Assembly: GCA_031289145.1 (NCBI GenBank)
Contig: JAITQA010000098.1
Location: 1-54,336 of the forward strand
Origin: Dysgonamonadaceae bacterium
Lineage (GTDB): Bacteria; Bacteroidota; Bacteroidia; Bacteroidales; Azobacteroidaceae
Length of the DNA: 54,336 bases
Direction: 5' to 3'
This document shows, one piece after another, positions 4,712 to 31,926 of the stretch; the first letter of the stretch is position 1, and the number at the start of each line of letters is the position of its first letter. The translations under genes and the position numbers were made by a program. The notes beneath the pieces were generated by a model that made no database searches, was not told the DNA's origin, and saw only the letters and a program-made list of their open reading frames with translations.

Positions 4712-4722
4712 ATATAAATATT

Positions 4723-8241: not shown

Positions 8242-8265
8242 TACACTCATTCAATAATCCAAATT

Positions 8266-10647: not shown

Positions 10648-10651
10648 AAAA

Positions 10652-10667
10652 CGTCATTTCAATGACG
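10652..10667. promoter_or_regulatory. Palindrome between GH3 and kbl
   Basis: CGTCATT-TC-AATGACG is a 16-base near-continuous dyad with a 2-base centre, 6 bases after the GH3 stop and about 22 bases before kbl ATG. The tight centre suits a protein-binding site more than a terminator, and no T-run follows it. Confidence 0.35.
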
Positions 10668-10689
10668 AAATTACAAAAATAAATAATAA

Positions 10690-11886: not shown

Positions 11887-11893
11887 TCCGAAT

Positions 11894-12844: not shown

Positions 12845-12874
12845 GTAAAGACAACTGATGTGAACAGGGAGCAT

Positions 12875-13921: not shown

Positions 13922-13936
13922 GATTAATTTCCAGGG

Positions 13937-14587: not shown

Positions 14588-14636
14588 TGTCTCTGACGAC
14601 TATTAAAGAGTTTTTATTACAGAATATTATTGGCTA

Positions 14637-14668
14637 CGAAGGTACAACTTTGTCTTGTATAAACCAAA
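14637..14668 (-). promoter_or_regulatory. Promoter of the pit operon
   Basis: On the minus strand TTTG (14665-14668), 20 bases, then TACCTTCG (14637-14644), one base off the TAnnTTTG consensus. It lies about 50 bases upstream of the DUF47 start. Confidence 0.5.
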
Positions 14669-14710
14669 ATTTTTTTGAAAAATTTAAATAAAATATAATT
14701 ATTGCGATAG

Positions 14711-14803
14711 AAATTCAGTCAAAAAGGTTTTCAATTTCTTCCATATTCAGATTGTTCAAAGGATTGTTGGCAGTGATAAATGTTTCCGACAAACGATTTT
14801 TTT
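14711..14803. repeat. Left 93-bp direct repeat flanking the PUL island
   Basis: This segment is identical, base for base, to 28948-29040, which contains the last 89 bases of the SNF2 helicase gene plus 4 more. Here it has no helicase body and lies between the pit operon and galM. It fits an attachment-site or recombination duplication of a gene 3' end. Bases 14804-14840 continue with weaker similarity to the helicase gene (see findings). Confidence 0.9.
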
Positions 14804-14898
14804 ATTTTGCAATTGTATAATTTTCTCTTGCCGATTCACAATCACGATCTCAACGATTACTCCAGAAGCAGCAGTTGCTTCTTACACAACACCTTTTC

Positions 14899-16161
14899 TC
14901 AGCGATCTACCCGAAACCGATACTCCGTTATCGACCGATAAACCTCCGTTGGCCGTAGCGTGCACGAGGGGAAAAGCGGCTCGTTGGGCGTGTTCGGATA
15001 GTGAAGTGTTTCAAAGAGGATGCCACCATACTTGCTCAGTGCGCCGTATTTCCCTATAATATTCTGGGAAAGGTTGATACCGGTGTAGATCAGTAGTCCA
15101 GGCTCGGTTGTCCACGTTTCGAGGATACGGCTGCTCGCAGGCTCTTTCAGCGAGGCCGCTTTCGCCAGTTGTCCCGACTGATTGCGCAACACCCAATTTG
15201 CAGAGTATCCGCCCATAAGCTGTATGTGTGCATTGGGTTGATTGATCCGCTCAAGGAATGTGTGTCGGTCACGGAAGTCGAGTGGCGTACCGGAGACGGG
15301 AACGATTTCGCCTGTTGGGACGTATGCCTTGTTGTTGGGTGTCATTGAGTCGGCGGCAACGGTCAACTCGTTGTCAAGCACAGTTCCGCCTCGCCGCCCT
15401 TTCAGATTGAAATAAATGTGTTGGGACAAATTCACAATCGTCGGTTTATCTGTGGTAGCGCTGTATTCAATACGCAATGTGTTGTTGGGTAGCCAGTAAT
15501 AAATGACGTCACAAGTCAGATTGCCCGGATAGCCCTCCTCTCCGTCGGGACTGAGGCGATGAAAACGGACGCCCACAGTGTCGTGGCGCGAGAAGGATTC
15601 GGCTTGCCACATCACACGGTCGAACCCTTTGAAACCGCCGTGCAGATGTCCGGGCAGTCTGTTTGGCGCTTCATTACAAGTTAATTGATAGAGGGTCGAG
15701 TCCAATCTGAAGCGACCCCCCGCGATGCGATTGGCATAGCGCCCCAACAAGCAGCCCATAAAACGCTCGGGGGCGGTTTCATATTCTTCCAGACTGCCAT
15801 AACCCAATACGACGTCGTCGAGCACGCCTTCTCGGTCAGGCACAAACAGTTTGATGAGGCGGCAGCCATAGTCGATCACTTCCAGATATGCGCCGCTTGG
15901 GTTGGTCAGGCGGAAAAGCGTGACGCTGTCGCCGTCGGCGGTCGTGCCATAATGACTGCTTTCGATGCGGCTTGCATCCATTTCGCGCATAAATGTATGC
16001 GCCTTCATGATCATATTTTGTGAAATATTCATCGCCAGTACTATAAACATCATTATTTTCAATGTTGTTTTCAGATGTCGTCGTTGCGCTCTATTCCCAA
16101 ATGAGGCATCAAATCCGAATGTTTTCACTTGCACATACCACAATGTTTGTAATTTTTTCAT
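14899..16161 (-). CDS. galM: Aldose 1-epimerase with unusually long leader
   Basis: GalM interconverts alpha and beta anomers of sugars such as galactose. The 360-residue catalytic part begins about residue 60 and shows YGCRLIKLFVPDREG, GRYANRIAGGRF, HLHGGFKGFDRVMW with a catalytic His, and SQHIYFNLKG. The first 50-odd residues, with QVKTFGFDASFGNRAQRRH and a hydrophobic stretch IMMFIVLAM, are not part of a normal GalM and resemble the leader of Bacteroidota TonB-dependent receptors. It therefore seems to be an exported version, but a start at one of the internal Mets near residue 37 is also possible. Last gene of the PUL on this strand. Confidence 0.85.
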   Translation of the reverse strand: MKKLQTLWYVQVKTFGFDASFGNRAQRRHLKTTLKIMMFIVLAMNISQNMIMKAHTFMREMDASRIESSHYGTTADGDSVTLFRLTNPSGAYLEVIDYGCRLIKLFVPDREGVLDDVVLGYGSLEEYETAPERFMGCLLGRYANRIAGGRFRLDSTLYQLTCNEAPNRLPGHLHGGFKGFDRVMWQAESFSRHDTVGVRFHRLSPDGEEGYPGNLTCDVIYYWLPNNTLRIEYSATTDKPTIVNLSQHIYFNLKGRRGGTVLDNELTVAADSMTPNNKAYVPTGEIVPVSGTPLDFRDRHTFLERINQPNAHIQLMGGYSANWVLRNQSGQLAKAASLKEPASSRILETWTTEPGLLIYTGINLSQNIIGKYGALSKYGGILFETLHYPNTPNEPLFPSCTLRPTEVYRSITEYRFRVDR

Positions 16162-16200
16162 GTTACTTGTTTTTACTTGTGAAAACTCGATTTACTATTG

Positions 16201-17964
16201 TTAATCAAACACCACCGGCAACCACTTTGCCGGTGCGCTTTCCGTCAATCCATTGAATCCGTCGTTGATGTTTTTATCATGGAGCACGGCATTAAACATC
16301 AATCGACTGTTCTTGGCGTCGATCAATGAGGTGGGAATAGCCAACTCGGCAACAAATCCTGTGTCGTGCTGTCCGTCGTTGAACACGCCGCTGAGACCGG
16401 CTTTGCACGTGACGCCGTTGTTGTCGGCAACGAGCGTTTTAGTTGATGCGTCGTACTTCACTTTGAACTTCAATGTTTTCTCTCCATTGTTCAGCATGAT
16501 GGTGAAGGCGTCGTCAGTAGTCAGCGCTTCGTCCAGACGTTCGATCAGCAGATAGGTGTTGTTGGTATCGTGTGCCAGACGGAACACCGCTTGTGAGTGC
16601 GAGTCACTTCCCAGAAAGAAGGCGTCTGTGTTGGCCGTCCAATCTGTGTTGTCGCCATCCACCATTATGGTCTTTTGAGGAATGTTGATGCGATGATTGA
16701 GCACCATTTTCCCTACCAGGATTGAACCTTTCGTTCCGCTGGTAATAACGCGCGGGCAAGCGACGGCAAGCGTATGCGAGTCATCCAAATCAGTACAGCC
16801 CCAAAAAGAGGGAGCATTTGGAAAGGGGATATTCATCACGTCGTGATCGAAATCGTCGGCCGTGGAGCCTCCCATCAGCAGAATGAAACGACCGTCGAGG
16901 GTATTGACATTGGCATTGTACGACAGCACGCTTTCGCCCGACGGGAACAATGATAAGTAGGGCGCAGCGCCAACAAACACATTCCATTGGTGGTTGACAG
17001 GACCTTCTTCGTTTTGTCCGATGGATGTTGCCCAGTTGTCGGTCGAGTTGCAATAGGAGATGCGGTATTCCGACCCTGCATAGTTCAGCCGCGCTTCGCA
17101 CACGATGGCGATGGTTTGGTTATCGTGCAACAAACGTGCGCTGACCATCTGTCCGGAGAAGATTTTGACGCCATTATCATTGGTATAAGTGTATTGATGC
17201 ACCACGCGAATCGGCAACTGACCGATCGGCGGCGTCCATATCTGTCCGTTGTCATACGAACGAATGATGGATGAGCCGGAGTTGTGAATGCCTTCGGTCG
17301 GATCGTTGTCGGTGAAATAAACCTGCACTTCGCCGTTGGGCAGTTGCAACAGGTATGGCTCCCAGCACGAGCCTTGATATATGATCTCTTCCGGCGTCCA
17401 TGTCATGCCGTTGTCGCTGCTGCGCCGCAACATCAGTCCGCTGTCCCACGGACGGGTGTAATAACCCTGATTGTCACGGAAGCAACAAACTGCAAGGATG
17501 TCACCGTTTTGCAATACTACCGCATCAGCCGTCGCAAATACGCGCGTATCCGACCCGTGCGGATATTTGGTGAAGAAAGATTTACTCACACTCCACGTCA
17601 ACAGGTTTTGGCTCAACGTATAATAGATGTTCGGACCGGTTTGTCCGTCCTGATAAAACAGAATATACTGTCCGTTAGCTAACTTCTTGATGCGTGGATA
17701 AACAGGATAAGCGCAGGCGAGTTCGCTGCTTTGCAGTTCCACATAGCGGCGGAAATCAAGTTCCAGCAGATTGTTCTTGTCGTCTTTGTGAGAATCAATC
17801 ACCGTAGCGCGTGTGTTTAATTTAGTAATATCCGTGATCGTCGGCTGATTTTCTCCCGAAGTATCGTCCGGATCGTCTCCATTGCTGCCGGAGCAACATA
17901 TAATACACAATGATAGCAACCAAACGGACGAATGCAGCCGGTAATAACACCCATTTCTTTTCAT
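16201..17964 (-). CDS. Sialidase-fold (BNR/Asp-box) lipoprotein with C-terminal carbohydrate-binding-like domain
   Basis: Signal peptide ends LCIICCSGSNGDD with a lipoprotein Cys near residue 24. The six-bladed propeller has Asp boxes SSDNGMTWT (about 180-190) and SYDNGQIWT (about 240), and the region after residue 430 (DGDNTDWTANTDAFFLG, then a beta-rich stretch) resembles family 9 carbohydrate-binding modules. Sialidase-fold proteins include sialidases and exo-arabinanases of GH93; the sequence does not decide, and no sialidase FRIP motif or catalytic Arg triad is identified here. A TTG at 17973 is in frame; ATG 17964 is the better start. It overlaps nothing and lies 12 bases after the GH-A gene, in the PUL operon. 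Confidence 0.72.
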   Translation of the reverse strand: MKRNGCYYRLHSSVWLLSLCIICCSGSNGDDPDDTSGENQPTITDITKLNTRATVIDSHKDDKNNLLELDFRRYVELQSSELACAYPVYPRIKKLANGQYILFYQDGQTGPNIYYTLSQNLLTWSVSKSFFTKYPHGSDTRVFATADAVVLQNGDILAVCCFRDNQGYYTRPWDSGLMLRRSSDNGMTWTPEEIIYQGSCWEPYLLQLPNGEVQVYFTDNDPTEGIHNSGSSIIRSYDNGQIWTPPIGQLPIRVVHQYTYTNDNGVKIFSGQMVSARLLHDNQTIAIVCEARLNYAGSEYRISYCNSTDNWATSIGQNEEGPVNHQWNVFVGAAPYLSLFPSGESVLSYNANVNTLDGRFILLMGGSTADDFDHDVMNIPFPNAPSFWGCTDLDDSHTLAVACPRVITSGTKGSILVGKMVLNHRINIPQKTIMVDGDNTDWTANTDAFFLGSDSHSQAVFRLAHDTNNTYLLIERLDEALTTDDAFTIMLNNGEKTLKFKVKYDASTKTLVADNNGVTCKAGLSGVFNDGQHDTGFVAELAIPTSLIDAKNSRLMFNAVLHDKNINDGFNGLTESAPAKWLPVVFD

Positions 17965-17976
17965 GGCTTTCAATTT

Positions 17977-19068
17977 TTATGACTTTCCTGTCATACTCTT
18001 GATAAATGTGATCTCCTCCTCGCTATACGGCATTCCGTCAAGATTAAGAATATCGTGAAACCAAACTGTAGGTTCGGGTTCGTCGGCTTTGTGACTCCAA
18101 TGCACATGAAAATTGCATTTGCCCTTCACCAATCCCCAACTGATGGCGCCGATATTTTCACGTTTTAAGATGGGCATAATCGCCTCAAATGTTGATTCGG
18201 GGCGACCCATATACTCCTGACAAATCATAGGACGACGAAAACGCTTAAGCATTTTGATGAACGCTTCCATGCCGTCGGCGTTTGAGTAGCAATGATAAGT
18301 CATCACGTCGCAGTTCTCGCCCAGGAAGCTGACAATATCCATGGCAGTGTTTTTGCCCGGAATCCCCCAGATTGGGGAAGACAAGGGTTGCGACGGATTG
18401 ACGCTTCTCGCCCACTTGAACACGGCACGCAGCAAGCCCATGGAATCGGCGTCGCGGTTGAAATTCTGCGGCTCGTTGTACAAACACCAGAGCAGAATCC
18501 GCGAATCATCTTTGAAAGTCGTCAGGATATCCTTGACATAGCGCTCCAATGGCGCCCATTGCGTAGAATCGTTGACAACCTCTGCTTTGGGACTTTGCAG
18601 CCAGCCCGAATTGTGTACACCTTGAATGGGGTCGGGCTGTTTACCCATCTTTGCTTCGGGTTGGGTGGGTTTGCCTCCGTTGGTGAAGAAGGAGGCGATC
18701 ACTTTCAGGTGATGTTGCTCGCAAATGTCGAAGAAGCGCGACAATCGTTCTTTCATGCCATCAGGATCGACCTGCCACACCAGATCGTACAGAAAAATGC
18801 GCACCGTATTGAAACCCAAATCTTCCATCCAACCCATTTCTTTGTCGATGGTTTGCGGGTCGAACGTTTCGGCCTGCCACATTTCAATCTGATTAATGGC
18901 TGTCGAAGTGACGTAATTCGCGCCGACCGGCCACCCTTGTTCTGCATACCATGCGCTGGCCTTTTCTTCTGTCCAACGTTCACTCGTTGCGGGTTCCTGT
19001 TTGTTACCGGCACAACTGATAATACAGAAAACGGCGCATACATACAATCCTATATCTTTATTTTTCAT
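17977..19068 (-). CDS. Clan GH-A glycoside hydrolase lipoprotein
   Basis: A 363-residue cell-surface or periplasmic glycosidase. Lipobox FCIISC puts the lipid on Cys19. The barrel starts at GWPVGANYVTSTAINQ, has LGFNTVRIFLYDLVWQ, the acid/base Glu199 in CLYNEPQNF, and the nucleophile Glu285 in MICQEYMGRP, the two-Glu layout of GH5 and relatives. Many homologues are annotated as beta-xylanase or cellulase family, but the exact family is not certain from sequence. It sits in the PUL between the DUF5107/TPR gene and the sialidase-fold gene. Confidence 0.75.
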   Translation of the reverse strand: MKNKDIGLYVCAVFCIISCAGNKQEPATSERWTEEKASAWYAEQGWPVGANYVTSTAINQIEMWQAETFDPQTIDKEMGWMEDLGFNTVRIFLYDLVWQVDPDGMKERLSRFFDICEQHHLKVIASFFTNGGKPTQPEAKMGKQPDPIQGVHNSGWLQSPKAEVVNDSTQWAPLERYVKDILTTFKDDSRILLWCLYNEPQNFNRDADSMGLLRAVFKWARSVNPSQPLSSPIWGIPGKNTAMDIVSFLGENCDVMTYHCYSNADGMEAFIKMLKRFRRPMICQEYMGRPESTFEAIMPILKRENIGAISWGLVKGKCNFHVHWSHKADEPEPTVWFHDILNLDGMPYSEEEITFIKSMTGKS

Positions 19069-19080
19069 CGCTATATTTTA

Positions 19081-22000
19081 TTATTGGTTCATTATTCTTG
19101 CCCACAAATTGTCGGGTTTTGCATTCAGCGCTTTGGCAAAGTATTCTTGTGCACGCGCTACGTCGCCTTTGCCCAAATAGCCCAATCCGGCCATGTAGAA
19201 AGAGGAAGTATTGACTTCGGCCACTGTTTTACCCGGGCCGAATGAAACGAAAAAGTTTTCGACGTAATCAGTTGCTTCGCCCTCGCCTTGCTTAATTAAG
19301 GCGTCGAACAGCGGTGTGACGTCGGCTTTCTTGTCCAACTTCAGCATGGCCATCGCCTTCTCGTAATCGTATATATTTGTACCACCGGAAAGATTCTCGG
19401 CAGCCAATCGATAATACTTTTTGGCTTCGCTTTGCTTGCCTTGCTGTTCCAAAGCCAGTCCTGTCAGATAGTACACCTGCGCATTGCGGGCGTATATATC
19501 TTCGCGCGACAGACATTGATTTTCAGGATAGGTATCGGCCAAGCGGAAGTATTCGCAAGCTTTCGCCGCATCGCCTTTGTCGAACGCCGCCTTGCCTGCC
19601 AGTAAACAGGCATCGACATAGATATCGTGTAAATCGTTGACGCCTTCCTGGCGACTGAAGAAGTTGTCCGTCAGGTGACCGATCGCCTTGTCGTATTCGC
19701 CCTGAAAAATAGTCATCCTGATTTCGCGCACAAACGAATCATAGCGATTCTTCACCACATCGTGATGCGCAGACAACAGCTCGTAACGCTTCTGTGGTAT
19801 AACGCCGCTACTCTCATAAACCTCGTCAAGTTCGGCAAGGAAGATAGGTTGCGTAGCGTCGATTGCGATGGCTTTCTCGTAATTCTCAATGGTACGCGCC
19901 GCATCTTTCAGATGGAACTTATAAGCCCACCCCAGATTGCGGTAAGCCATGGCAAAGCGCGGATTAAGTTGTATCGCCTTTCGCCAGTAGTCCATCGCCT
20001 TGTCGGGCTGCTTCTGAAACAGCAGGTTGCCCATATAATAAGATGTATTGGCCGCATCGGGCAGATATTCCATTGCTTTCTCGTAAACCTTCACCGTTTC
20101 GAGGCGAAAGGGGAAACAGTAGTCGATGGGCAGGGCGACGGCCTGCGTAAAGTAATTTTTAGCAGCCGCATTTTCACCATTCATATCGGCCAAATAACCG
20201 AGATAATACTTCACGGTGGGATACGAAGTTGATTTATCAATAGAAGACAGCAATGCCTCGGCTTCCACAGGGGATCCATTGTTGAGATAAGCCACAGCCA
20301 ACTCGAGGTAGGATTCGGGCTGATTGCGCATCAGTTGTGTAAATTCAGATTGTGGACGGACGCCCAACAGGCAACTTTCGTGCACGGCATACGCATTCAG
20401 CGGATCGAACCGCAAGACTGCGATATTGATGGTGCGAGCTGCTGCTTCCTTGCCGGAAATGCGTAACAGAGTTGTTTGCAGATTGAGTGCGCTGAGGTTG
20501 CGAGCATTGGTAGCCAGCGAGGCCTCGATTTCTTCAAGCGCACGCTCATACCGATGTTGCGTGGCCGAGATCTGCGCCAACTGAAAATAGGCAGCCGATG
20601 CAAACGCATAATCCCAGGCAGCGCGATAGAGCGTATCGACGGCAGCCGGATAATTGCCTTGCACTTTCAATATCAATCCCAGATGATAGAGCGCTTCACA
20701 ATCGCGCGGACGGGTGTAATCTTTGGTCAGACGACTGACGGCGCGGCGCAAGTGCATGGCAGCCTGGGCGTATTCGCCGTTTTCTCGGTAGAAAATACCC
20801 ATCTGCGTGTTGCTGCGGACGTCGTTCGGATCACGCCGAAGCACTTCCTCGAAATAATCGTTGGGATTGACGAATGCATTGTGAAATTGCTTGTTGCGCA
20901 AGCCGACCAGATAACATTCTTCGATATTATTGATTTCTTTTGGTTTGAGCGGTGGTCGAACTTCATGCGGCAGCGGTTTTTCAGCGTTCTTTGGCTGTGG
21001 TGAGTAGGCGATCAACTCCTTTCCGGAGGCATCGGAAAGCGACAGTACAAGTTCTTCTTTTATCAGGCCGGCGGCGATTGCTATCTCAGTCTGAAACGGT
21101 TGATCGGGAGCGACATCCACAATCTTTTGGAAGAGCGTCGTTCCTTCTTTCTTCTTTAAAAGAATAGTTGCCCCACGCTCACGTTGCGTAGTGTTGGCGG
21201 CGATCAGCGCTTTTGTTCCGTTCAGTTCCAGATTGAGAGCTGCGTGTTCGTTGCCTTTCTTCGCGCCATGCATATCCCGTATCCCGTACCAGTGTTTAGT
21301 GAATGTTTTCACCTCGTAGGGGTTGATCCAACTATAATCAGGCTGATTGTCGGAATATGCGCCAACCATGAGTTCGATATACGGTCCATCGCTATCGGTC
21401 AACACCTGACTGTCCCACATAGCGCCATAAGCGCCGGGGCCCCATTGCCACAACTTGCCGCCTTTCACAATAGAATGATTGCCGACCAACATCGTACCTG
21501 CTTTGCGGCTGTAGTCGTAACCGGCAATGAAATCGTCTTTTAGATCGTAGGCGAAGATCGATACCGGATCGGGATGATTCTTCCACCATGAAATGTCGAT
21601 ACTGTCGTTGTAATAGGGTTTTCCCAGATAAGGCTCGCGACTGATTGGCCAGTGCACAAAACTGTTTTTAGCATGATAGACTCCGAAATCGGTGCTTTCG
21701 GGAAAGATGATCTGATAGTCGTTGTTGGCGGCAGTCGATACGTTCGACCAGTAGAGAAACGAGTTTTTGTTCATGGTTTCGTTGACCAGCCGTCCCGATA
21801 CTTCGATATACGACTTGCTTGGATAGAGCGTCAGTCCGATCGCCCACGACATACGCTGGCGCGGCTCGGTCTCACCGATCCAGATCGTCTTGCTGCCGTC
21901 GGTGTTCTCCGCCAGTTTGTAATCCACCGGAAGATATGACGACGCGCGGTGGTGGTGGAACACGTTGAACTCCACGCCTCCCGAAATCCACGCTCCCAGC

Positions 22001-22386
22001 ATTCCCACGTTAGAAGGTTTGATGACGTGCTGATGATAGAAGATGTCGTAGCCATTGGTCTTGTCGATCGCATAGAGTAGGCGACCGCCGATGTCGGGTA
22101 GCACGCAGAGTTTGATATATTCGTTCTCGATATACAACGCTTTATGCACTTGCGCCGAGCGTTCGTTGGTCACGTTGTCGTTCATCGCGTAGGGATACAC
22201 GCCGCGTGTCGCTCGTTGATAGGCAAAACTGCGTTCGAAACTCGGCGCTTTCTCGGGGGCGTTGACTACGTAAGAGGGTAGCGTCAATGTTCCTTCCCAT
22301 ATCTTTACGTCGTGCGTATTTTGCGCCGACAGTTTGACCAGCACGCTCAATAAGGCGCACGAAGTCCATATCATGATTCTTTTCAT
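19081..22386 (-). CDS. DUF5107 protein with TPR repeats, PUL-associated
   Basis: A large exported protein of 1101 residues. The signal peptide ends near KLSAQ. Residues about 25-330 match DUF5107, a domain resembling the galactose mutarotase fold, with VLPDIGGRLLYAIDKTNG, PSNVGMLGAWISGGVEFN and HHHRASSYLPVDYK. Residues about 480-1095 carry many TPR-like helices (FYRENGEYAQAAMHLRRAV, FQKQPDKAMDYWRKAIQLNP, GDVARAQEYFAKALNAKP). DUF5107 proteins recur in glycan loci and a catalytic role has been suspected; I cannot show one. Upstream neighbour of the GH-A enzyme, transcribed after SusD. Confidence 0.75.
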   Translation of the reverse strand: MKRIMIWTSCALLSVLVKLSAQNTHDVKIWEGTLTLPSYVVNAPEKAPSFERSFAYQRATRGVYPYAMNDNVTNERSAQVHKALYIENEYIKLCVLPDIGGRLLYAIDKTNGYDIFYHQHVIKPSNVGMLGAWISGGVEFNVFHHHRASSYLPVDYKLAENTDGSKTIWIGETEPRQRMSWAIGLTLYPSKSYIEVSGRLVNETMNKNSFLYWSNVSTAANNDYQIIFPESTDFGVYHAKNSFVHWPISREPYLGKPYYNDSIDISWWKNHPDPVSIFAYDLKDDFIAGYDYSRKAGTMLVGNHSIVKGGKLWQWGPGAYGAMWDSQVLTDSDGPYIELMVGAYSDNQPDYSWINPYEVKTFTKHWYGIRDMHGAKKGNEHAALNLELNGTKALIAANTTQRERGATILLKKKEGTTLFQKIVDVAPDQPFQTEIAIAAGLIKEELVLSLSDASGKELIAYSPQPKNAEKPLPHEVRPPLKPKEINNIEECYLVGLRNKQFHNAFVNPNDYFEEVLRRDPNDVRSNTQMGIFYRENGEYAQAAMHLRRAVSRLTKDYTRPRDCEALYHLGLILKVQGNYPAAVDTLYRAAWDYAFASAAYFQLAQISATQHRYERALEEIEASLATNARNLSALNLQTTLLRISGKEAAARTINIAVLRFDPLNAYAVHESCLLGVRPQSEFTQLMRNQPESYLELAVAYLNNGSPVEAEALLSSIDKSTSYPTVKYYLGYLADMNGENAAAKNYFTQAVALPIDYCFPFRLETVKVYEKAMEYLPDAANTSYYMGNLLFQKQPDKAMDYWRKAIQLNPRFAMAYRNLGWAYKFHLKDAARTIENYEKAIAIDATQPIFLAELDEVYESSGVIPQKRYELLSAHHDVVKNRYDSFVREIRMTIFQGEYDKAIGHLTDNFFSRQEGVNDLHDIYVDACLLAGKAAFDKGDAAKACEYFRLADTYPENQCLSREDIYARNAQVYYLTGLALEQQGKQSEAKKYYRLAAENLSGGTNIYDYEKAMAMLKLDKKADVTPLFDALIKQGEGEATDYVENFFVSFGPGKTVAEVNTSSFYMAGLGYLGKGDVARAQEYFAKALNAKPDNLWARIMNQ

Positions 22387-22460
22387 TCTTTCTTAATGAT
22401 TGCGTTTATTAATGTGAATAAAGCCCAATCTCTCGTGATCAGGCTCCTTCCATCATTGCA

Positions 22461-23915
22461 TTAGTACCCGGGATTCTGATCAGTCTCTACGTTGAAGTAG
22501 GGATTATGCAGAAACTCGTTGTCGGGGATCGGCCACCAATAAGCCGCGTCGGAAGTGATGTCGATGTTTTTGGCATACTTTACATACTCGGCCAGCTTGC
22601 CACAGCGAATCAGATCGATGTAACGCTTTCCCTCGCAATAAGTTTCGTAACCGCGTTCCTTCAACACAAGATTGATGAAACTCTCCAGGGTGTTGTAATC
22701 GGCAAGTTTTAAATCGACCGTGGCATTGGCCGTCTTCGGATCTTTGCCATACGCGCGACGGTGCACCCAGTTCAGCTTCTCCATGGAGTCGGCTGTTGGG
22801 CCATTGGCTGCACGGGCGGCCGCTTCGGCATAGTAGAGCAACAGGTCGCTGTACTTATATAGTGGATTGTCGTTGCTGGTATAGCTGCCGGTCTGGTCGG
22901 GATCGATAAATTTCTTACACAGTTTTCGCGCTACTCCGCTCACTGTCGCATTGTAGAGGTTGAACGGACGGCGCAGATCGGCTGCATCCCAATCTACGAT
23001 AAACTTGTTGGCGGCCAGACTGTAGAGGCCCATCGGGCCTTGCGTCGGATTGATGTAGGAAGTACCTGTCGTGTGGCACATCCATGCGAACATGGCGCCA
23101 TTCTGCGAGTTATACTTGATGTAGAATATCTCCTCTGGAGTGCCGACAATGTCAGGACCGAAAATGTTGTAGAAGTCGTCGGCTACAGTCACCGGAACGA
23201 GCGAATATTTGTTGGAGTTGATTACTTCCAACGCCTTATCGCGTGCTTCCACCCATCTCTGTAGATAGAGATACACCTCTGTCAGACAGGTCTTTGCTGC
23301 CCATTTGGATGGCCGCCCATACTGTTTGACTGCATCGGGCAGGCTCTGTTCTGCATACGTCAAGTCCGACACAATCAGATTGTACACCTCGGCCACGGTG
23401 GCGCGTGGACGGATCAATTCTTTCCAATTGGTTTCGTCAAACAGCGGGATGCCACCCCAATGCCACGTCAGGCGCAAATAAGCCAATGCCCGCAAAAATT
23501 TCAACTCGCCTGACAACTCTTTGTAACTCTGCTCCGACATATTGGCATCTTGCATCAATTCCAATATCTCGTTAGCAAAACGAACCACGCGATAGAGTAT
23601 TGCCCACGTGTCGTTGATGCGCGAGATATTTGTCTGGTCAAGTCCCGTATATGACGACATATAGGCATACGAACCGCTTCCATAATTGTAGTCGGCCTGC
23701 GTTTCGTTGATCATCTGCTCATATCGGCCGAAAAGTTGGTCGCGACGTAGCTGATAGTAACAAGAGAGAATCACACTTTCTGTTCGTTCGGCATTCGTCA
23801 TGAATGTCTCGACGGCGTCATATTTGGGTTCTTCCTGCAAAACATCCAGGTCTTCGCATCCCCACGCCATTATACCAATGGCTATTAAAGAGAGTATATA
23901 CTTTTTCATATTCAT
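22461..23915 (-). CDS. SusD-like glycan-binding lipoprotein
   Basis: Signal peptide ends IMAWGC with lipidation at Cys20. After EDLDVLQEEPKYDAVETFM come alpha-helical repeats typical of the SusD/RagB fold (ALAYLRLTWHWGGIPL near residue 150, CLTEVYLYLQRW, LVLKERGYETYCEGKRYIDL near the end). SusD-type proteins sit on the outer-membrane surface, lid the SusC pore and bind glycan. It follows SusC by 14 bases, the usual operon order. M1 at 23915 and M3 are equally possible starts. Confidence 0.93.
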   Translation of the reverse strand: MNMKKYILSLIAIGIMAWGCEDLDVLQEEPKYDAVETFMTNAERTESVILSCYYQLRRDQLFGRYEQMINETQADYNYGSGSYAYMSSYTGLDQTNISRINDTWAILYRVVRFANEILELMQDANMSEQSYKELSGELKFLRALAYLRLTWHWGGIPLFDETNWKELIRPRATVAEVYNLIVSDLTYAEQSLPDAVKQYGRPSKWAAKTCLTEVYLYLQRWVEARDKALEVINSNKYSLVPVTVADDFYNIFGPDIVGTPEEIFYIKYNSQNGAMFAWMCHTTGTSYINPTQGPMGLYSLAANKFIVDWDAADLRRPFNLYNATVSGVARKLCKKFIDPDQTGSYTSNDNPLYKYSDLLLYYAEAAARAANGPTADSMEKLNWVHRRAYGKDPKTANATVDLKLADYNTLESFINLVLKERGYETYCEGKRYIDLIRCGKLAEYVKYAKNIDITSDAAYWWPIPDNEFLHNPYFNVETDQNPGY

Positions 23916-23929
23916 AATACTATTAATAA

Positions 23930-26900
23930 TTAAAACACAATTCTTACACCCATCGTGTAGCTCTTGTTGCCCGGATAGTTGTAGGCGTCGATACCTTGTT
24001 CTATCGCACTGCTACCGCCTTGTGCATTGACCTCTACATCCCAGAAAGGATATTTCGTGACGGTGAACAGGTTCTGCGCGCTCACGTACACTTGCGCTTT
24101 ACGCATTCCGAGCAAACTCTCCGGCAGATTGTAGGCCAACTCAAAGTTCTTCATCCGCAGATAGGAAGCGTCATAGACAAAACGGTTGGACATACGCAGG
24201 TTGCCCGACGCAGCCGCCGTAATATTGGGGTAGGTGGCATTCGGATTGTCGGGTGTCCAATGATCGTAGAGTACTTCGCGCATAGTGCTGATGCCCCATT
24301 GGTAGTCGTGCGTCAAGGCTGCCATACTCAGCGAATATATATCGGCGCCCAGCGAGGCATACAGGAAACAACTCAACTGGAAGTTTTTGTATTTCCAAGA
24401 AGAGGTGAAGCCCAGTGTGCAGTCGGGATGGGGCGTACCGATGATTTCGCGGTCGAAAGTAGTGATGCTGCCATCACCGTCAACGTCTTTATACAGCACT
24501 CGTCCCTGATCGTCGTATCCGTCGTCAACGAAGCCGTAGAACACACCCAGCGGTTCGCCCACGCGAATGAGATGCACGAAATCTTTCATGATGACGATAT
24601 CCTGTTGAGCGCCATTCATGTCTTTACCCTGGTACAGTTCGGTCACCTTGTTCTTATTGAACGACGCATTGGCAGTGACGTTCCACTCCAGCAGGCCTTT
24701 CAGAATGTCGGCGTCAAACCACACTTCAAAGCCTTTGTTCTCCATCCTTCCGATATTTTGGGTGGAGGTGGTGTAACCGCTCGAACGAGGCATTTCAACC
24801 GTGTTGAGCAAGTCTTTGGTCTTTTTCATGTAGTAGTCGGCAGTGACGCGCACGCGGTTGTCGAACAGCGAAAAGTCAACGCCCAGGTCTAATTGGGTGG
24901 TGGTTTCCCATTTCAGATTCGATTGGTAGGTGTCGGACATGCGATAGTAAGGCGTCAAGTCTTTGTTCAACACAATCGTTCCAGAAGTGATGAGATCCAG
25001 CGTCTGGTAGGGCGAAACACCTGTGTTACCCGTCACGCCGTAGCTTACGCGCAACTTCAAGTCCGAGAGAAAATCGGTAGATCTTTCCATAAACGATTCT
25101 TCGGAAACGCGCCATGCCAGGGCAGTCGACGGAAAATATCCCCACTTGCCGCCTTTGCTGTAGCGCGACGAACCGTCGGCACGCATATTAAAGGTTGCCA
25201 TATACTTGCTGTTGCAGGCATAATTCAGGCGGCCGAAGAACGACAGTATCGTCCATTTGGAATAGCTCGATGAAGGCACATTTTGTTTGGCGCCCGCACC
25301 GATATTGAACACGCCGCCCGCATCGCTTTGAAACTGCTCGGCGCTCATGCTGGCCGATTTTGACACCGATTGGTCGTAGGTCATACCGGCCATGGCCGTC
25401 ACGTGATGCGCCTGCACAAATGTCTTATCGTAGGTCACCGTGTTGGTGCTGTTCAGATCGACCGTCTGTGGGAAGCCCAACGTGGCCGATCCCATCGAGC
25501 CGGGATATGCAGTGCTCGTATAGTACTCGTTGCGGGTATCCATTACGTTCGCATTGCCCGACAGACGGATCGTCAGGTCGCTGATCGGTTTGTAGTCGAT
25601 CGCTGCGTTGGACACGAAACCGTAGTTCAATTGCTTGCGTGTCACTTCGTTGATGTAGGCAATCGGATTCAATCCTCCGGTCAGGAAGTCGGTGCGCATC
25701 AGGCTGTAGTTGCCATTCTCGTCGTAAGGAGTGATGGTGGCCGGAGCGCCCAGGATGCTGCCGATTACCGACGCCAAGCGGTTGGTGCCTGAACTGTCGT
25801 TGCGATCCCAGTCAGTAAACATATACAGCAACTTGCCTGATACCGTTAGCTTCTTCGACAGATTCATACTGACCTGCGCACGTATCGACATCTTTTTGAT
25901 TTCGTTGGCGGGGATGATACCTTCCTGATCGTAGTAACTCACGCCGAGCAATCCCAGCATCATCTCATTGCCTCCGCTGATATTGATGGAATGATTGTTG
26001 ACCTGGGCTGTGCGAAACACGAGGTCTTGCCAGTCGGTTCCCTTACCGGCGGCCGCAATCTGTTCGGTCGTGTAGAAATCGTTACCGGTAGCTATCTTCT
26101 GCTGTTCATTCATGAACTGTAGGTACTCGGATCCGGTCATCAGATCGAGCTTTTTGATTTGCGAGGCAAAGCCGATACTTCCGTTGTATTCGACGTTCAT
26201 CTTGCCTTGTTTGGCCTGCTTCGTCGTAATGAGCACGACGCCGTTGGCTGCCCGAGACCCATAGATCGCCGAAGCCGATGCATCCTTCAACACTTCGATG
26301 CTCTCTACGTCGGCCACGTTCAGTGTAGAAATTTGTCCGGGAAAGCCGTCGATGATGTAGAGCGGCTCGTTTCCTCCCTTGATGGAGTTCGTTCCACGAA
26401 TGCGAATTTGGATGGTTGAACCGGGCATACCCGATCCTTGCTTGACTTCGACACCGGCAGCACGCCCTTGCAAGGCCGATTGCACATTCACCTTGGCAAA
26501 TGAATTCATAATGTCACCTTTCACCGAAGCTACCGACCCTGTCAAATCGCGTTTCTTCACCGTGCCGTAACCGATCACAACAACATCGTCGAGACTTTTT
26601 ACGGTTTCCTTCAACACGATGCGAAGCGTGGCGCCCGAAGTAGCCTTTACGCTCGTGTCGGCATAACCCATATAGGTGACGTCAAGCATGCTTCCCTCTT
26701 CGACTTCAATTGAGAACGCACCGGTTAGGTCGCTCACCGTCCTTTTCTTCTCTGTTCGCGAATAGATCGACGCGCCCACAACAGGATCGCCGTTTTCGTT
26801 CACAATAATACCTTTTACGGGGATACCTTCGGCAACGTTGGCCTCACGTCCGGTGAGGTAGATCTTGTTATCAACGATTTCCCACGTGACGCCCGTTTCT

Positions 26901-27154
26901 TTCAAAAGAGCAACCAGTATTTCATTCACATTAGCATCCTTTTTATTGATGCTGACCTTGCGCTGTCCCAGAATCACTTCCTTGCTGTAGGAGATCTCGA
27001 CGTTGCCCACTCGCTCAAGTTCGCTGAGAGCCGTTTCGAGCGATACGTTTTCAAGATGCAGCGTGATTTGTTGCAGATTGGCTGCCGTCAATGTCGGTAC
27101 AGCAACGGAAAAACCAAACAAACAAATAATAATGGCATTAAATTTTTTTTTCAT
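23930..27154 (-). CDS. SusC-like TonB-dependent receptor with STN signalling domain
   Basis: A 1074-residue outer-membrane receptor that takes up glycan. Signal peptide to about residue 25; STN domain about 25-105 (LQQITLHLENVSLETAL); carboxypeptidase-like domain about 110-195 (GIPVKGIIVNENGDPVVGAS); TonB plug from VVVIGYGTVKKRDLTGSVAS; beta-barrel from about 320 to the C-terminal TMGVRIVF. The STN domain is what signals to a FecR-type anti-sigma factor, matching the fecR and sigma genes upstream. A hairpin (27186-27218) lies in the gap between fecR and this gene. Confidence 0.95.
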   Translation of the reverse strand: MKKKFNAIIICLFGFSVAVPTLTAANLQQITLHLENVSLETALSELERVGNVEISYSKEVILGQRKVSINKKDANVNEILVALLKETGVTWEIVDNKIYLTGREANVAEGIPVKGIIVNENGDPVVGASIYSRTEKKRTVSDLTGAFSIEVEEGSMLDVTYMGYADTSVKATSGATLRIVLKETVKSLDDVVVIGYGTVKKRDLTGSVASVKGDIMNSFAKVNVQSALQGRAAGVEVKQGSGMPGSTIQIRIRGTNSIKGGNEPLYIIDGFPGQISTLNVADVESIEVLKDASASAIYGSRAANGVVLITTKQAKQGKMNVEYNGSIGFASQIKKLDLMTGSEYLQFMNEQQKIATGNDFYTTEQIAAAGKGTDWQDLVFRTAQVNNHSINISGGNEMMLGLLGVSYYDQEGIIPANEIKKMSIRAQVSMNLSKKLTVSGKLLYMFTDWDRNDSSGTNRLASVIGSILGAPATITPYDENGNYSLMRTDFLTGGLNPIAYINEVTRKQLNYGFVSNAAIDYKPISDLTIRLSGNANVMDTRNEYYTSTAYPGSMGSATLGFPQTVDLNSTNTVTYDKTFVQAHHVTAMAGMTYDQSVSKSASMSAEQFQSDAGGVFNIGAGAKQNVPSSSYSKWTILSFFGRLNYACNSKYMATFNMRADGSSRYSKGGKWGYFPSTALAWRVSEESFMERSTDFLSDLKLRVSYGVTGNTGVSPYQTLDLITSGTIVLNKDLTPYYRMSDTYQSNLKWETTTQLDLGVDFSLFDNRVRVTADYYMKKTKDLLNTVEMPRSSGYTTSTQNIGRMENKGFEVWFDADILKGLLEWNVTANASFNKNKVTELYQGKDMNGAQQDIVIMKDFVHLIRVGEPLGVFYGFVDDGYDDQGRVLYKDVDGDGSITTFDREIIGTPHPDCTLGFTSSWKYKNFQLSCFLYASLGADIYSLSMAALTHDYQWGISTMREVLYDHWTPDNPNATYPNITAAASGNLRMSNRFVYDASYLRMKNFELAYNLPESLLGMRKAQVYVSAQNLFTVTKYPFWDVEVNAQGGSSAIEQGIDAYNYPGNKSYTMGVRIVF

Positions 27155-27185
27155 ATTTTTGTGTATTAAAATTAATAAGGAAATA

Positions 27186-27218
27186 GGGCTTCGTGTGACC
27201 GGAGGTCATATAAAGCCC
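27186..27218. other. Stem-loop in the fecR-susC gap
   Basis: GGGCTT and AAGCCC pair outside an inner TGACC-gga-GGTCA stem, between the fecR stop and the susC start. There is no strong T-run after it, so it may be an attenuating terminator or a leader structure of the susCD message. Confidence 0.45.
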
Positions 27219-27229
27219 TTACTTGAAGG

Positions 27230-28237
27230 CTAATACTTTTTCTTCTCTTTTCTCAGGTATATTTCATATCCTTCGCCCTTGTCAACAAAGTGCACGGGTG
27301 TGATCAGTTCCAGTCGATTGATGATCTTTTCGAGCGACGCGTCCTGCTCAAACCGAATGTGATAGGTGTATTTGTAGAGTTGCCGGTTGGTGATCACGAA
27401 TGTTTTTCCGAAGTGACGCTCAAGCACGCACAGCATGTCTTGCAGATGTGTATTTTTGAAAACGAGATTGCCGGAGGTCCATGCAAAATAATCTTCTGTT
27501 CCATCTGAGGAGGCGATGGTGCACACACCGTCGGCTTTGGTGAACGTCACGAGCTGACCGGGCTTGACAGACTGTGCCTGGGCATCGGCCAATACTTTAT
27601 TGTATATGTCGATCGAACCTTCGTTCAGGTAAGTCAGAATTTCTTTGTCCTCGGGATAGGCTTTGACGTTAAATTCCGTGCCCGTCACCACAATGTCCAT
27701 ACCCGTCAACTCGACGCGAAACGAACGAGCCGTGTCTTTGGCCACCTCAAAGAAAGCCTCGCCCGAAAGCGTTACGCGGCGTTCATTACCAGTAAACCGA
27801 TCGGGATATTGCAGCCGCGAGTCGGCATTGAGCCAAACGATCGTTCCGTCGGACAGCACGACTTGTTGCCGTTGCGCCTTGGGTACATACGTGTTAATGA
27901 TTTTCGCCACAACGTCGTCTGCTACGGGAACCGATCGAAAGATAAAGTAGGAAGACACGAGTAATATTGGTATCAGCACAGCCGCCACGCGTGCAATCCG
28001 CGGCCACAGCGTCTTCCGCTGTAGTGGCAGACGTGCTTCTATGTGTTGACGCATCCGTTCGTCCGGCGCTGCATGATCAATCAGTATCTCGCTGTTGTCG
28101 TTGATCTGTTGCGACATCCGTTGCTTCAGAAAAAGTTGCCCTTCGTCCGAAGCGAACCATTCCCGCACCTGCTGCCGTTCTTCAGGGGCGCTTTCCCCCC
28201 TGAAATAACGTTCGATAAGCTGTTTTTTCAGTTTCAT
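27230..28237 (-). CDS. FecR-family anti-sigma factor
   Basis: A 335-residue inner-membrane protein. The N-terminal cytoplasmic part (about 1-80) binds the sigma factor; a membrane segment RIARVAAVLIPILLVSSYF lies near residues 80-100; the FecR domain is about 115-210 (QVVLSDGTIVWLNADSRL, GEAFFEVAKDT); the end, about 260-335, is DUF4974-like and contacts the STN domain of SusC. Transcribed after the sigma gene with a 157-base gap containing a near-palindromic GTAC stretch. It belongs to the PUL relay. Confidence 0.93.
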   Translation of the reverse strand: MKLKKQLIERYFRGESAPEERQQVREWFASDEGQLFLKQRMSQQINDNSEILIDHAAPDERMRQHIEARLPLQRKTLWPRIARVAAVLIPILLVSSYFIFRSVPVADDVVAKIINTYVPKAQRQQVVLSDGTIVWLNADSRLQYPDRFTGNERRVTLSGEAFFEVAKDTARSFRVELTGMDIVVTGTEFNVKAYPEDKEILTYLNEGSIDIYNKVLADAQAQSVKPGQLVTFTKADGVCTIASSDGTEDYFAWTSGNLVFKNTHLQDMLCVLERHFGKTFVITNRQLYKYTYHIRFEQDASLEKIINRLELITPVHFVDKGEGYEIYLRKEKKKY

Positions 28238-28394
28238 TCTGTTGTACTTTATATATAGTACACATTGGGCGGGAAAAAGTATGATAGAATTTACGGATTT
28301 TTTTCCGGTCTTGAATCGCTTTACCGGTGAATACGACTTTGAGGCCTTGTATCTTCAATGGACCGTGAGTTGATCTACAAAAGAACACAGTCGG

Positions 28395-28931
28395 CTAACG
28401 GCTGCTCATCATGTTTTTCCTCAATTCCTTGATGATTTGATTGTATTGAAACTTCACCGTGTTCTCCGAAAGGGTCAGTCGCCTGGCTATTTCGGCATTC
28501 AACAGTTCGTCGTCGATTTTCATTTCGCAGATGCGACGACGTTGTGGTGATAATTGCGCGATGGCTTTGCGAAGTGCCTTTAGCACGTGTTCTTCGTAGA
28601 CAGGTTCGGCGTCCGGCGCATCCGCAAGGTCGTTGGTCATTGCTTCGTTGACTTCTGCATAGTCGCGAGCGTGGTCACGCAACTCATTGAGTAGATGGTT
28701 CTTCATACTGGTGAACAGATACTTCCGCAGATGCCCGTCTTCATTGATAGCCGTCCGCTTCTCCCACAGCTTGAGAAAGAGCCACTGCACACAATCTTCC
28801 GCCCACGCACGATTTTGCAGATAATGAAAAGCGAAGCCATACAAAGATCCGTTGTATTTTTCCCACACTATGGCAAACACCTTTCTGTCACCATGTTTCA
28901 GGCCTGTTAACAAAGATTTTTCGCTATCCAT
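28395..28931 (-). CDS. ECF sigma-70 factor of the PUL
   Basis: A 178-residue RpoE-like sigma factor. Region 2 has FAFHYLQNRAWAEDCVQWLF and LWEKRTAINEDGHLRKYLFT; region 4 has LSPQRRRICEMKIDDELL and RRLTLSENTVKFQYNQIIKE, the HTH. It should direct RNA polymerase to the susCD promoter when the SusC/FecR relay fires. First gene of the PUL on this strand; its start is only 16 bases from the right-hand 93-bp repeat, so the whole regulatory unit was carried with the island. Confidence 0.93.
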   Translation of the reverse strand: MDSEKSLLTGLKHGDRKVFAIVWEKYNGSLYGFAFHYLQNRAWAEDCVQWLFLKLWEKRTAINEDGHLRKYLFTSMKNHLLNELRDHARDYAEVNEAMTNDLADAPDAEPVYEEHVLKALRKAIAQLSPQRRRICEMKIDDELLNAEIARRLTLSENTVKFQYNQIIKELRKNMMSSR

Positions 28932-28947
28932 CTGCGCTTGGGCGTAT

Positions 28948-29040
28948 AAATTCAGTCAAAAAGGTTTTCAATTTCTTCCATATTCAGATTGTTCAAAGGA
29001 TTGTTGGCAGTGATAAATGTTTCCGACAAACGATTTTTTT
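28948..29040. repeat. Right 93-bp direct repeat (3' end of helicase gene)
   Basis: Identical to 14711-14803. Bases 28952-29040 encode the last 28 residues (about NRLSETFITANNPLNNLN to the end, LFD) and the stop of the SNF2 helicase, so this copy is functional coding sequence. Four more identical bases lie beyond the stop, and the two flanks then differ completely. Confidence 0.9.
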
Positions 29041-31798
29041 CCGCTTGTAGCCATAAAATTTTCTCTTCAATCGTATCGTTGGAGATGAAACGGTAAACCA
29101 TCACCTTTTTATCTTGCCCAATGCGGTGCGCTCGGCTCAAAGCCTGCATTTCTGCGGCCGGATTCCACCAGGGGTCAATGATGAATACATAATCGGCAGC
29201 TGTCAGGTTCAATCCTGTCCCGCCTGCTTTCAGGGATATGAAGAAAGCATTCACGTCTTCATTTTGATTAAACCGGTCGATTTGCGCTTCACGGTCAAGC
29301 GTTTGTCCGATGAGCATGGCATATTTCCAGTCTCTTTCATCAAATGTTTTTGCTAATAATTTAAGGTATTTTACAAATGAGGAAAAAATCAAGACTTTAT
29401 GCCTGCTTGCTTTTATATTTTCTAAATAAAGGATGATTTGGTCTAATTTTCCCGAATCGCCTTCGTATTCCGGATAAGTCAGGGCGGGATGGTTGGAGAG
29501 GAGCCGGAGACGGGTCAGGCTTTGCAAAGCTATCAAGTTGTTTTGCAAGAAAAGTTCCTTGTTTTCCAATAGCTTATTGCGAATACTGTTTTTTTCTGCA
29601 ATGTATATTTTTTCCTGCTCTTCGGTCATATCGCAATAAACGACTTCTTGCGACAAGGGTGGTAATTCCGGCGTTACCTCTTCTTTTGTCCGGCGAAGCA
29701 GAAAAGGTTGTATCAGTCGTAGCAGGGATTCTTCGGCCTGTTTGTTTTTCTCTTTAATAATTTTGTTAATATAACGGTCCTTGAAAAATGACAAACTGCC
29801 CAATAAGCCGGGATTGATAAAATTGAATTGTGCCCAGAGGTCTGACAGGGAGTTTTCTATCGGCGTCCCGGTTAAAGTCAATTTGTAGTCGGAAATCAGT
29901 TTCTTGACGGCATGGTAAATAATGGAATCGGGATTTTTGATGTATTGGCTTTCATCTAAAACGATATAATGAAAAGGATATTCTGCCAGATAATCCTCAT
30001 CGGAGCGGACCATTCCGTACGATGTGATAATCACTTGATAAGGACGGAAGAGGTCTTCTATCTTATCCGGTTTCAGTCGCTTGACGCCTGCATGGATATA
30101 GGCTTTCAAATCCGGTGCGAATTTTTTCAGTTCGTTTTGCCAGTTATGCAGCAGGGAGGTCGGAGCGACTATTAAGGATGCCGGGGTATGGGGCGTGGAA
30201 TAAACGGATACAAGCAAAGCAATTGTCTGAATGGTTTTCCCAAGGCCCATATCGTCGGCCAGACATCCGCCGAAATTCATTTTCCGGAGATGTTTCAGCC
30301 AGTAAAAACCCTCTTTTTGATAAGGCCGCAGCAGGACGTCCAATTGTTCCGGAAGGAAAGCGTGTTCGACCGGCGTTTGTTTGAATCGTTCTAAATCTAC
30401 GCTTCGTTCATCAAGGAAAAAGGATTCAATAACATCATTTAAAAAGTGGGCATGTATTTTCTTCAAGCGAATTCCGGCCTTGCTGTCTTCCGCATATAGA
30501 AAAAGTTCCTGATAACGTTGGAACCATTCTTCCGGCAGGATAAAGATGCTTCCATCCGGCAGGACATATTCCGGATTCCCGTTTAGAATATGTTTCCGAA
30601 AACGATTGAAAGGCAGTTTAAAATGCTCAAAAACCACTTCTATTGCCAATTCGAACCAGTCGATTTTTTCAGTTACTGTCGATTGCAGGCTTATTTTACC
30701 TTGATAATAGCTTTTTTTTGTATGCTGTTCAATAAAAAAATCTTTCAGGTCGTCGTAATGGCTGTTTATCCAGTCAATCAAACCATAGCGTTGCAGGATT
30801 TCCGGATTCCGTATCAGGTAAAAATGATTTTCTCCTTCCTGCCGTAAATCCATATTGACTAAGCGATTAAACATAACACTCTCCCATTCCGGATCCCGGT
30901 CGAACCAGCAGATATTTTCTGTTCCGTCTGTTTCTTCCAAGTTGACCACCCTCCTCTTTCGCTGATTTACCGTAGGCAGAAAACGTTGGTTGCCATACCG
31001 GAAATACAGGGAGAGTACCAAACTGGCGTAGAAATCTTCTTCTAATACTAAAACGGCTTGTTTTTCCGGCTGTTTTTCATTCATTTCTATGCCTTCAATC
31101 CGCACTTCGTATTTGGGAATGGTTTTCAGGACGAATTTTTCGATATACAATTTTTCGGAAGACGCCGGTACATCAATATGCGTTTTGGTAAAAAACGGGA
31201 TTAATTTTTTGGCATCAATATTTTCCACGCAGTGAATTTTATTACCCAACAGGGCAATACAAGGTTCGTGCGACAGAATTATCGCCGGTTCCTGTTGTAA
31301 TAGAATTTCTTCCTCGCCATTGGTCAAAGTGATAAAGTAGCGCAAGCCCTTTTCGTCTTTGATGAAATTGAACAAACAGCGGCTTGTTTCCTGTAGCAGT
31401 TCGATTCGGTTGTGTGCATAAACCGTCCGGCTACCGGCTGTTTCACGGAAGAAAACAGGAATACCGGTTTGCTTGGCAAAATTCATAATTTTGGGACAAT
31501 TTTTTTCGATGCGGGGTCGAATCAGATTGTCGATAGTATTTTGCGCAATCTTCGCCTTGTCTTTTTCGCGTGAATATGCTTTTAACAATGATTCGTCCGA
31601 AACTTCATTCACCGCTTTCATCAATGCGATCACCTCCGAAGAGGCTCCTTTTTCGATTTCTTCCTTATTGTTGGGGAGTCCTAAAATCGTGTAGCTTCCG
31701 CTATCTTGTGGGATAGCCGAATAGAGATTGATTTTCCATCCGAATTGCCGGTGGTGGGTGACTACTAAAACTAATTTATCATTCACAGGTGTATACAT
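28952..31798 (-). CDS. SNF2-family helicase/ATPase
   Basis: A 948-residue SWI2/SNF2-type ATPase that moves on double-stranded DNA; bacterial members are poorly known. The C-terminal half holds the motor: CLADDMGLGKTIQTIALL (motif I, about 515), VLDESQYIKNPDS (DExx box), LTLTGTPIENS (III), FSSFVKYLKLL, LKAGGTGLNLTAADYVFIID and QALSRAHRIGQDK (V and VI). The N-terminal half (about 1-480) is a large domain seen in Bacteroidota SNF2 proteins. Its last 89 bases are the 93-bp repeat bordering the PUL, so the gene 3' end is the insertion point. A TATCTTTG element at 31816-31823 is its likely promoter. Confidence 0.92.
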   Translation of the reverse strand: MYTPVNDKLVLVVTHHRQFGWKINLYSAIPQDSGSYTILGLPNNKEEIEKGASSEVIALMKAVNEVSDESLLKAYSREKDKAKIAQNTIDNLIRPRIEKNCPKIMNFAKQTGIPVFFRETAGSRTVYAHNRIELLQETSRCLFNFIKDEKGLRYFITLTNGEEEILLQQEPAIILSHEPCIALLGNKIHCVENIDAKKLIPFFTKTHIDVPASSEKLYIEKFVLKTIPKYEVRIEGIEMNEKQPEKQAVLVLEEDFYASLVLSLYFRYGNQRFLPTVNQRKRRVVNLEETDGTENICWFDRDPEWESVMFNRLVNMDLRQEGENHFYLIRNPEILQRYGLIDWINSHYDDLKDFFIEQHTKKSYYQGKISLQSTVTEKIDWFELAIEVVFEHFKLPFNRFRKHILNGNPEYVLPDGSIFILPEEWFQRYQELFLYAEDSKAGIRLKKIHAHFLNDVIESFFLDERSVDLERFKQTPVEHAFLPEQLDVLLRPYQKEGFYWLKHLRKMNFGGCLADDMGLGKTIQTIALLVSVYSTPHTPASLIVAPTSLLHNWQNELKKFAPDLKAYIHAGVKRLKPDKIEDLFRPYQVIITSYGMVRSDEDYLAEYPFHYIVLDESQYIKNPDSIIYHAVKKLISDYKLTLTGTPIENSLSDLWAQFNFINPGLLGSLSFFKDRYINKIIKEKNKQAEESLLRLIQPFLLRRTKEEVTPELPPLSQEVVYCDMTEEQEKIYIAEKNSIRNKLLENKELFLQNNLIALQSLTRLRLLSNHPALTYPEYEGDSGKLDQIILYLENIKASRHKVLIFSSFVKYLKLLAKTFDERDWKYAMLIGQTLDREAQIDRFNQNEDVNAFFISLKAGGTGLNLTAADYVFIIDPWWNPAAEMQALSRAHRIGQDKKVMVYRFISNDTIEEKILWLQAEKNRLSETFITANNPLNNLNMEEIENLFD

Positions 31799-31815
31799 TC
31801 TAAATAAACGTTATG

Positions 31816-31823
31816 CAAAGATA
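31816..31823 (-). promoter_or_regulatory. Promoter -7 element of the helicase gene
   Basis: Minus-strand TATCTTTG matches TAnnTTTG and lies 18 bases upstream of the ATG at 31798. No clear -33 partner is visible. Confidence 0.4.
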
Positions 31824-31926
31824 CGGTATTTTGTGGAAAGAATCTCCATAAAAGCGCTGAAACTAATGCTAAATTGGACAATAAGTCACTTGTTTCAGCG
31901 TTATTATCCCTGTGAAGCGTTTTAAA

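Follow-up and report, generated by a model that had tools for sequence, protein, structure and literature searches.

The window, i.e., the whole stretch of 54,336 nucleotides that was analyzed, contains a PUL on an island of approximately 14.1 kb that is bordered on either side by a copy of the 3' end of an SNF2-family helicase gene, and the corresponding site was encountered without the island in a sister genome. With a confidence only just above even, we take this island to be foreign DNA that entered the helicase 3' end as a non-autonomous or decayed integrative-type element.

An exact-repeat listing of the window revealed that positions 14711-14803 and 28948-29040 are identical at 93/93 bases, as had been claimed in the first-pass annotation of this DNA, and that this pair is the sole direct-repeat family of at least 30 bases within the window (chance expectation approximately 5e-47). 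When 14600-14910 was queried against all 169 contigs of the draft assembly (3.94 Mb, 96% complete), the two repeat sites were the only matches. The right copy had been assigned to the 3' end of an SNF2 helicase, and it indeed runs from offset 2758 of the 2847 bases of that gene to 4 bases past the stop codon, the open reading frame at 28952-31798 being intact and matching PF00176 and PF00271. The left copy is flanked by the DUF47/Pit operon on one side and by GalM on the other. That the gene homology ends 4 bases past the helicase stop codon is expected if the island restores the gene end. The features of the region are as follows.

12875-14587, minus strand: DUF47 regulator and PHO4/Pit phosphate transporter, the helicase neighbor at the empty site
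14711-14803, minus strand: left copy (helicase 3' end), without a mismatch to 28948-29040
14804-14829, minus strand: diverged continuation of the left copy, with helicase C-terminal coding (QEKIIQLQNKK) and a one-base shift relative to the block
14830-14898, no strand: spacer from the GalM stop to the left helicase fragment, from the sequence
14899-16161, minus strand: aldose 1-epimerase (GalM; PF01263, with TIGR02636 below its cut-off)
16201-17973, minus strand: BNR/sialidase-like protein (PF13088 at 29.8 bits, cut-off 31.4)
17977-19068, minus strand: 363-aa protein, weakly endo-beta-mannanase-like (PDB 7bob, E 4e-4, residues 46-129)
19081-22386, minus strand: DUF5107 and TPR protein (PF17128 and TPR families)
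22461-23915, minus strand: SusD-like lipoprotein (PF14322, PF07980)
23930-27154, minus strand: SusC/RagA transporter (TIGR04056)
27230-28237, minus strand: FecR-type anti-sigma regulator (PF04773, PF16344)
28395-28931, minus strand: ECF sigma factor (PF04542, PF08281)
28948-29040, minus strand: right copy, the last 89 bases of the helicase including the stop codon, plus 4, from the sequence
29041-29067, minus strand: codons of the helicase that correspond to the diverged arm of the left copy, from the alignment
28952-31798, minus strand: SNF2-family helicase, the target gene, intact (PF00176, PF00271)

The eight genes between the copies are all on the minus strand and form a PUL, in which a susC homologue lies beside a susD homologue (22461-23915 and 23930-27154). 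The carbohydrate-active content consists of weak mannanase and sialidase similarities only, plus the epimerase: the 363-aa protein has no Pfam match and endo-beta-mannanase 7bob as its sole PDB match, and the BNR/sialidase-like protein has weak PDB matches to sialidases. The base composition of the island is foreign to its surroundings, with a GC content of 50.0% in 14830-28947 versus 43.3% in 8199-14710 and 41.8% in 29041-32627, and with GC3 values of 0.58-0.65 across the eight island genes versus 0.41-0.52 across the 11 flank genes tested, a step that is present at both edges. The earlier claim of a PUL from sigma factor to GalM with raised GC between the repeats therefore holds. The sigma gene starts 20 bases past the helicase stop codon, and the PUL sigma regulator may now rely on read-through from the helicase promoter (28931-28952).

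The first-pass annotation had predicted an empty site in which the helicase 3' end joins the pit operon with one copy of the repeat, and such a site is present in G061, a sister genome located by a family-wide search (91-92% DNA identity; for the helicase, 93% protein identity across 299 compared residues and a DNA difference of 8.0% along the gene length). On G061 contig C210 pit runs directly into the helicase 3' end with one repeat copy: window positions 8199-12872 match G061 657-5331, positions 12875-14829 match 5389-7345, and positions 28944-32627 match 7222-10904 of the same contig, such that the matches of the two island sides overlap over that single copy. The site has lost no host DNA relative to G061, and compared with that genome the island is thus an insertion. 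Moreover, no match to the DUF5107 protein and, with 35 of 43 G061 candidates scored, none to SusD was found in G061 at E 1e-60, and its sigma-factor matches are distant only; G061, which is 87% complete, seems to be devoid of the PUL. The G061 match ends at 8199 and 32627, short of the contig ends by 656 and 218 bases, and further differences between both species may lie past these positions.

The pit operon was absent from the helicase stretches fetched from the first 15 relatives (13 of the same genus and two of other genera, the part past the helicase 3' end ranging from 171 bases to 15.8 kb), and of five additional genomes in which the pit region was sought, G061 alone had pit and helicase on one contig. 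An outgroup that shares the pit-helicase neighborhood was not found among the relatives searched, which leaves room for the reverse history, in which the PUL is ancestral and was lost by G061. Direct repeats can promote precise deletion, and recombination between them would have left a single copy in G061 that looks alike. This history is nevertheless quite improbable: the copies are identical at 93/93 bases despite a species difference of approximately 8%, and the left copy is without coding constraint, so that copies predating the split should have diverged. The foreign composition of the island and the presence of a close SusD relative in just one other of 45 family genomes also argue against loss. 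An artefact of the draft assembly, conceivable in view of its 169 contigs, is even harder to credit, since both island sides line up with a single G061 contig, and the block would have to lie beside both PUL ends even for a chimera formed through it.

The repeat had been described as 93 bases long, which is correct for the identical part and too short for the duplication as a whole, as the left copy continues to 14829. The G061 match on the pit side extends 26 bases past the 93-base block into the island, up to that position, and this diverged arm resembles helicase C-terminal codons. With a position profile built from 15 other helicases, the host helicase being excluded, the arm scored 20.5 bits, second among 108,594 13-codon windows of both strands; the helicase itself scored 36.6 bits and no other window reached 12 bits. 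The arm score was reached by none of 20,000 flank shuffles and by 3 of 36,152 sampled window positions, the helicase included. When the entire helicase end was used in a free profile search, the arm obtained 5.7 bits, at approximately rank 15 of 17,258 pieces, three of the higher-ranked pieces belonging to the helicase end or the repeat itself; the position-specific tests (shuffles and 13-codon windows) are the stronger ones and were designed after the similarity had been seen. The left copy thus amounts to approximately 119 bases of the helicase gene end, made up of the 93 bases shared exactly with the resident gene and a diverged remainder.

The contrast between arm and block is one observation that counts against an integrative reading, as 93 bases are identical while the adjoining 30 differ at 10. 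Each of the two 30-base arms differs from G061 at 7 positions, so that neither copy stands out as the original, and since 106 of 2817 overlapping 30-base helicase windows also reach 7 differences from G061, the right arm is not clearly imported. The 93-base block differs from G061 at 8/93 positions, similar to the 8.0% of the whole gene. A fixed-site recombinase alone predicts similar divergence in arm and block, once the variability of the protein in the arm is taken into account. The 10/30 differences in the arm versus 0/93 in the block therefore suggest that the copies were made identical by exchange during or after integration, or that both blocks are host DNA, and on this ground host recombination and one-sided homologous entry remain rivals.

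The first of these rivals proposes RecA-type integration, in which circular or plasmid DNA with a helicase 3' end would have entered by a single crossover, heteroduplex repair rendering the 93 bases identical, and no site-specific recombinase would have taken part. The same geometry would result, without loss of host DNA; an identical block beside a diverged arm is better accounted for than by a fixed-site recombinase, and an island in which no recombinase gene was found fits equally. Approximately 119 partly diverged bases are, however, little homology for RecA, and the end of homology 4 bases past the stop codon would be a coincidence. We regard this course of events as unlikely, though as the strongest of the rivals. 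Homology-facilitated illegitimate recombination, in which a linear donor pairs through a short helicase-like end on the left and is joined non-homologously on the right, immediately past the stop codon, would make both blocks host DNA, and thereby explains identical blocks together with a one-sided foreign arm, as well as a block that is 8/93 off G061, close to the gene-wide 8.0%. We judge it improbable: the donor itself must then hold a short helicase end beside GalM, and the host DNA deletion that usually accompanies this process is not seen at the site. In passages of PMC5361080 it is discussed for effector modules and described as quite rare in other bacteria.

The absence of target loss, the duplicated gene end, and the homology stopping just after the stop codon together are traces of gene-end integration, which is the reading we prefer. 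The insertion would have taken place in the source lineage, most likely after its split from the G061 lineage, by an island that arrived in a circular or carried form and brought its own copy of approximately 119 bases of the helicase 3' end. Recombination between this copy and the resident gene end would have left one gene end on each side and the helicase whole, with the gene end serving as attachment site, as it does for integrative elements. The island itself would then belong to the non-autonomous or decayed elements of the cis-mobilizable type, and the recombinase may have acted in trans or may since have been lost, and the 93-base identity would reflect exchange between the copies or a very recent event.

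Consistent with the claim that no integrase lies inside, recombinase and relaxase domains were found neither in the eight island genes by Pfam nor in 7 of these 8 by NCBIfam (FecR left out), and 10 of the 11 other island open reading frames of at least 100 aa were scanned and gave no Pfam matches. The island hence differs from integrative and conjugative or mobilizable elements, which have their own integrase and relaxase, and agrees with decayed or cis-mobilizable elements in having a single-copy empty site in a relative and no integration or transfer genes inside. Recognizable att arms were not seen in the island, and inverted repeats marking a recombinase core were not found at the right junction. 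Four imperfect inverted repeats (77-90%) at the left junction, including a 12-base palindrome (83%) in the diverged arm, were not taken as evidence.

Elsewhere in the assembly six matches were detected in a search for tyrosine recombinases; none is linked to the island site, and the helicase downstream stretches examined contained no match to these six integrases at E 1e-3. A recombinase-bearing relative at the helicase-end site was not found among relatives, phage, plasmid, and viral contigs. Phage and plasmid records with a detached helicase end were not recognized (one weak phage match; 20 of 30 plasmid records), and 17 of the 20 plasmid records listed, from 30, are annotated as DEAD/DEAH box helicase. 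In 17 of 19 viral contigs the match spans at least 225 helicase residues; in L222 (95 residues) and L217 (45 residues) it lies near the contig end, and in L219 and L221 a weak integrase similarity lies approximately 2.7 kb upstream of it. No att-type element was identified among these phage, plasmid, and viral sequences. Of the proposed site-specific or recombination insertion, entry at the 3' end of a gene, with the gene kept whole and a duplicate left on the far side, is supported, and a site-specific recombinase is at most a putative agent.

Related PUL genes are patchily distributed, in keeping with acquisition of the island: SusD was matched in 3 of 45 family genomes, closely only in G012 (73%), and a match to the BNR protein at E 1e-30 was obtained in 2 of the 393 genomes of the order that were sampled. 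In G012 (L105), a genome of the same genus, and a Parabacteroides MAG (L096) the core from SusC to BNR displays 63-76% protein identity, with a further copy at 45%, and sigma factor and FecR only 26-38%; GalM is on a different contig in G012 and absent from the L096 stretch. The low sigma and FecR identity and the location of GalM elsewhere imply that the island ends are not common to these relatives, and the island was accordingly rejected as a fixed unit. A helicase end beside the related PULs was not detectable in the G012 and L096 stretches read. The L096 PUL has its mannanase-like and BNR genes doubled, and between its sigma and FecR genes lies an open reading frame of 308 aa (L096:1338-2264), which, judged from its start, we take to be transposase-like.

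The fetched stretches of the 15 relatives contained no comparable duplicate helicase end downstream and no second island. The one notable self-match, in G027 (L052), was read as a local tandem repeat, with units of approximately 35 bases at 88.6% that span the helicase stop codon. A search of 58 genomes with 28900-29700 revealed no second repeat copy outside the window, at a sensitivity at which a diverged 120-base copy could escape. Across 20 stretches of the source genome (292,440 bases), selected for six integrase and nine sigma-factor matches and supplemented by five others, one other exact repeat of at least 30 bases was found, 35 bases long, in a survey that sees borders within stretches only, in draft assemblies that tend to break at repeats. 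The suggestion that PULs in general move by such a route is therefore not supported, neither the stretches of the 15 relatives nor the 292 kb of the same genome having yielded a second case. A broader variant, in which some PULs travel as integrase-less cassettes with a core-gene 3' end and are recombined in by the host, restoring the gene each time, seems doubtful to us.

Outside the island, three adjacent genes at 35295-40669 (539, 610, and 620 aa) all encode RCC1-type repeats, a tandem set that, to our knowledge, is unusual for a bacterium. A second neighborhood (46193-50960) comprises a BlaR1-like M56 peptidase (46193-47899), toward the end of which a TonB plug is weakly matched, an adjoining regulator of the penicillinase-repressor type (47910-48293), and, at 48312-50960, a protein of 882 aa that contains CarboxypepD_reg-like domains.

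The present island records, in a well-preserved state, an event of a known kind, in which the recombination step is what we infer, and its value lies in a PUL island of which both junctions and the empty site can be read at single-base resolution, together with a diverged copy of the target-gene end. It indicates that recombination at one gene end, rather than a swap between two flanking core genes, brought in at least one integrase-free PUL island, and if more cases of the same design were encountered, the spread of integrase-free PULs would become directly testable. A search of the open-licence literature retrieved no title or abstract start describing a PUL at a helicase gene end.

The prophage e14 carries its own recombinase, and unlike e14 the present island has no phage genes among its eight PUL genes. 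The two are alike in that a protein gene (E. coli icd in the case of e14) receives its 3' end from the integrated element and the displaced end (163 bp for icd) lies at the far side, as described for e14 in part of PMC6379469. Passages of PMC5704250 describe integrative and mobilizable elements that enter 3' ends of tRNA and housekeeping protein genes without disrupting these, and that decay to CIMEs, which retain attL and attR only; the direct repeats given there for tyrosine recombinases are 8-60 bp versus 93 here, where the att role is putative and no transfer domain was found in the eight genes. Metabolic cargo between a target gene end and its direct repeat is a property shared with the ssrA islands of Dehalococcoides, 15 of which are without an integration module and were suggested to be possibly cis-mobilizable; in the parts of PMC3146451 devoted to them, these have a tmRNA gene as target, a 20 bp repeat, several islands in tandem, and in many cases a putative serine recombinase. 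The present island differs in being single, in its protein-gene target, in its 93 identical bases, and in having no known recombinase.

PULs on mobile elements are known, as stated in part of PMC6907783, and ICEs have been described that insert within the snf2 gene of other ICEs (in part of PMC12942858). PUL islands without mobile genes are frequent in Bacteroides ovatus and Bacteroides xylanisolvens according to passages of PMC8845570, in which several ways of entry are weighed. As described there, those islands resemble the present one in that they lack mobile-element genes and lie exactly between conserved genes, and homologous recombination between flanking core genes is proposed for them; such recombination alone would not duplicate a gene end, unlike the event recorded in the present island.
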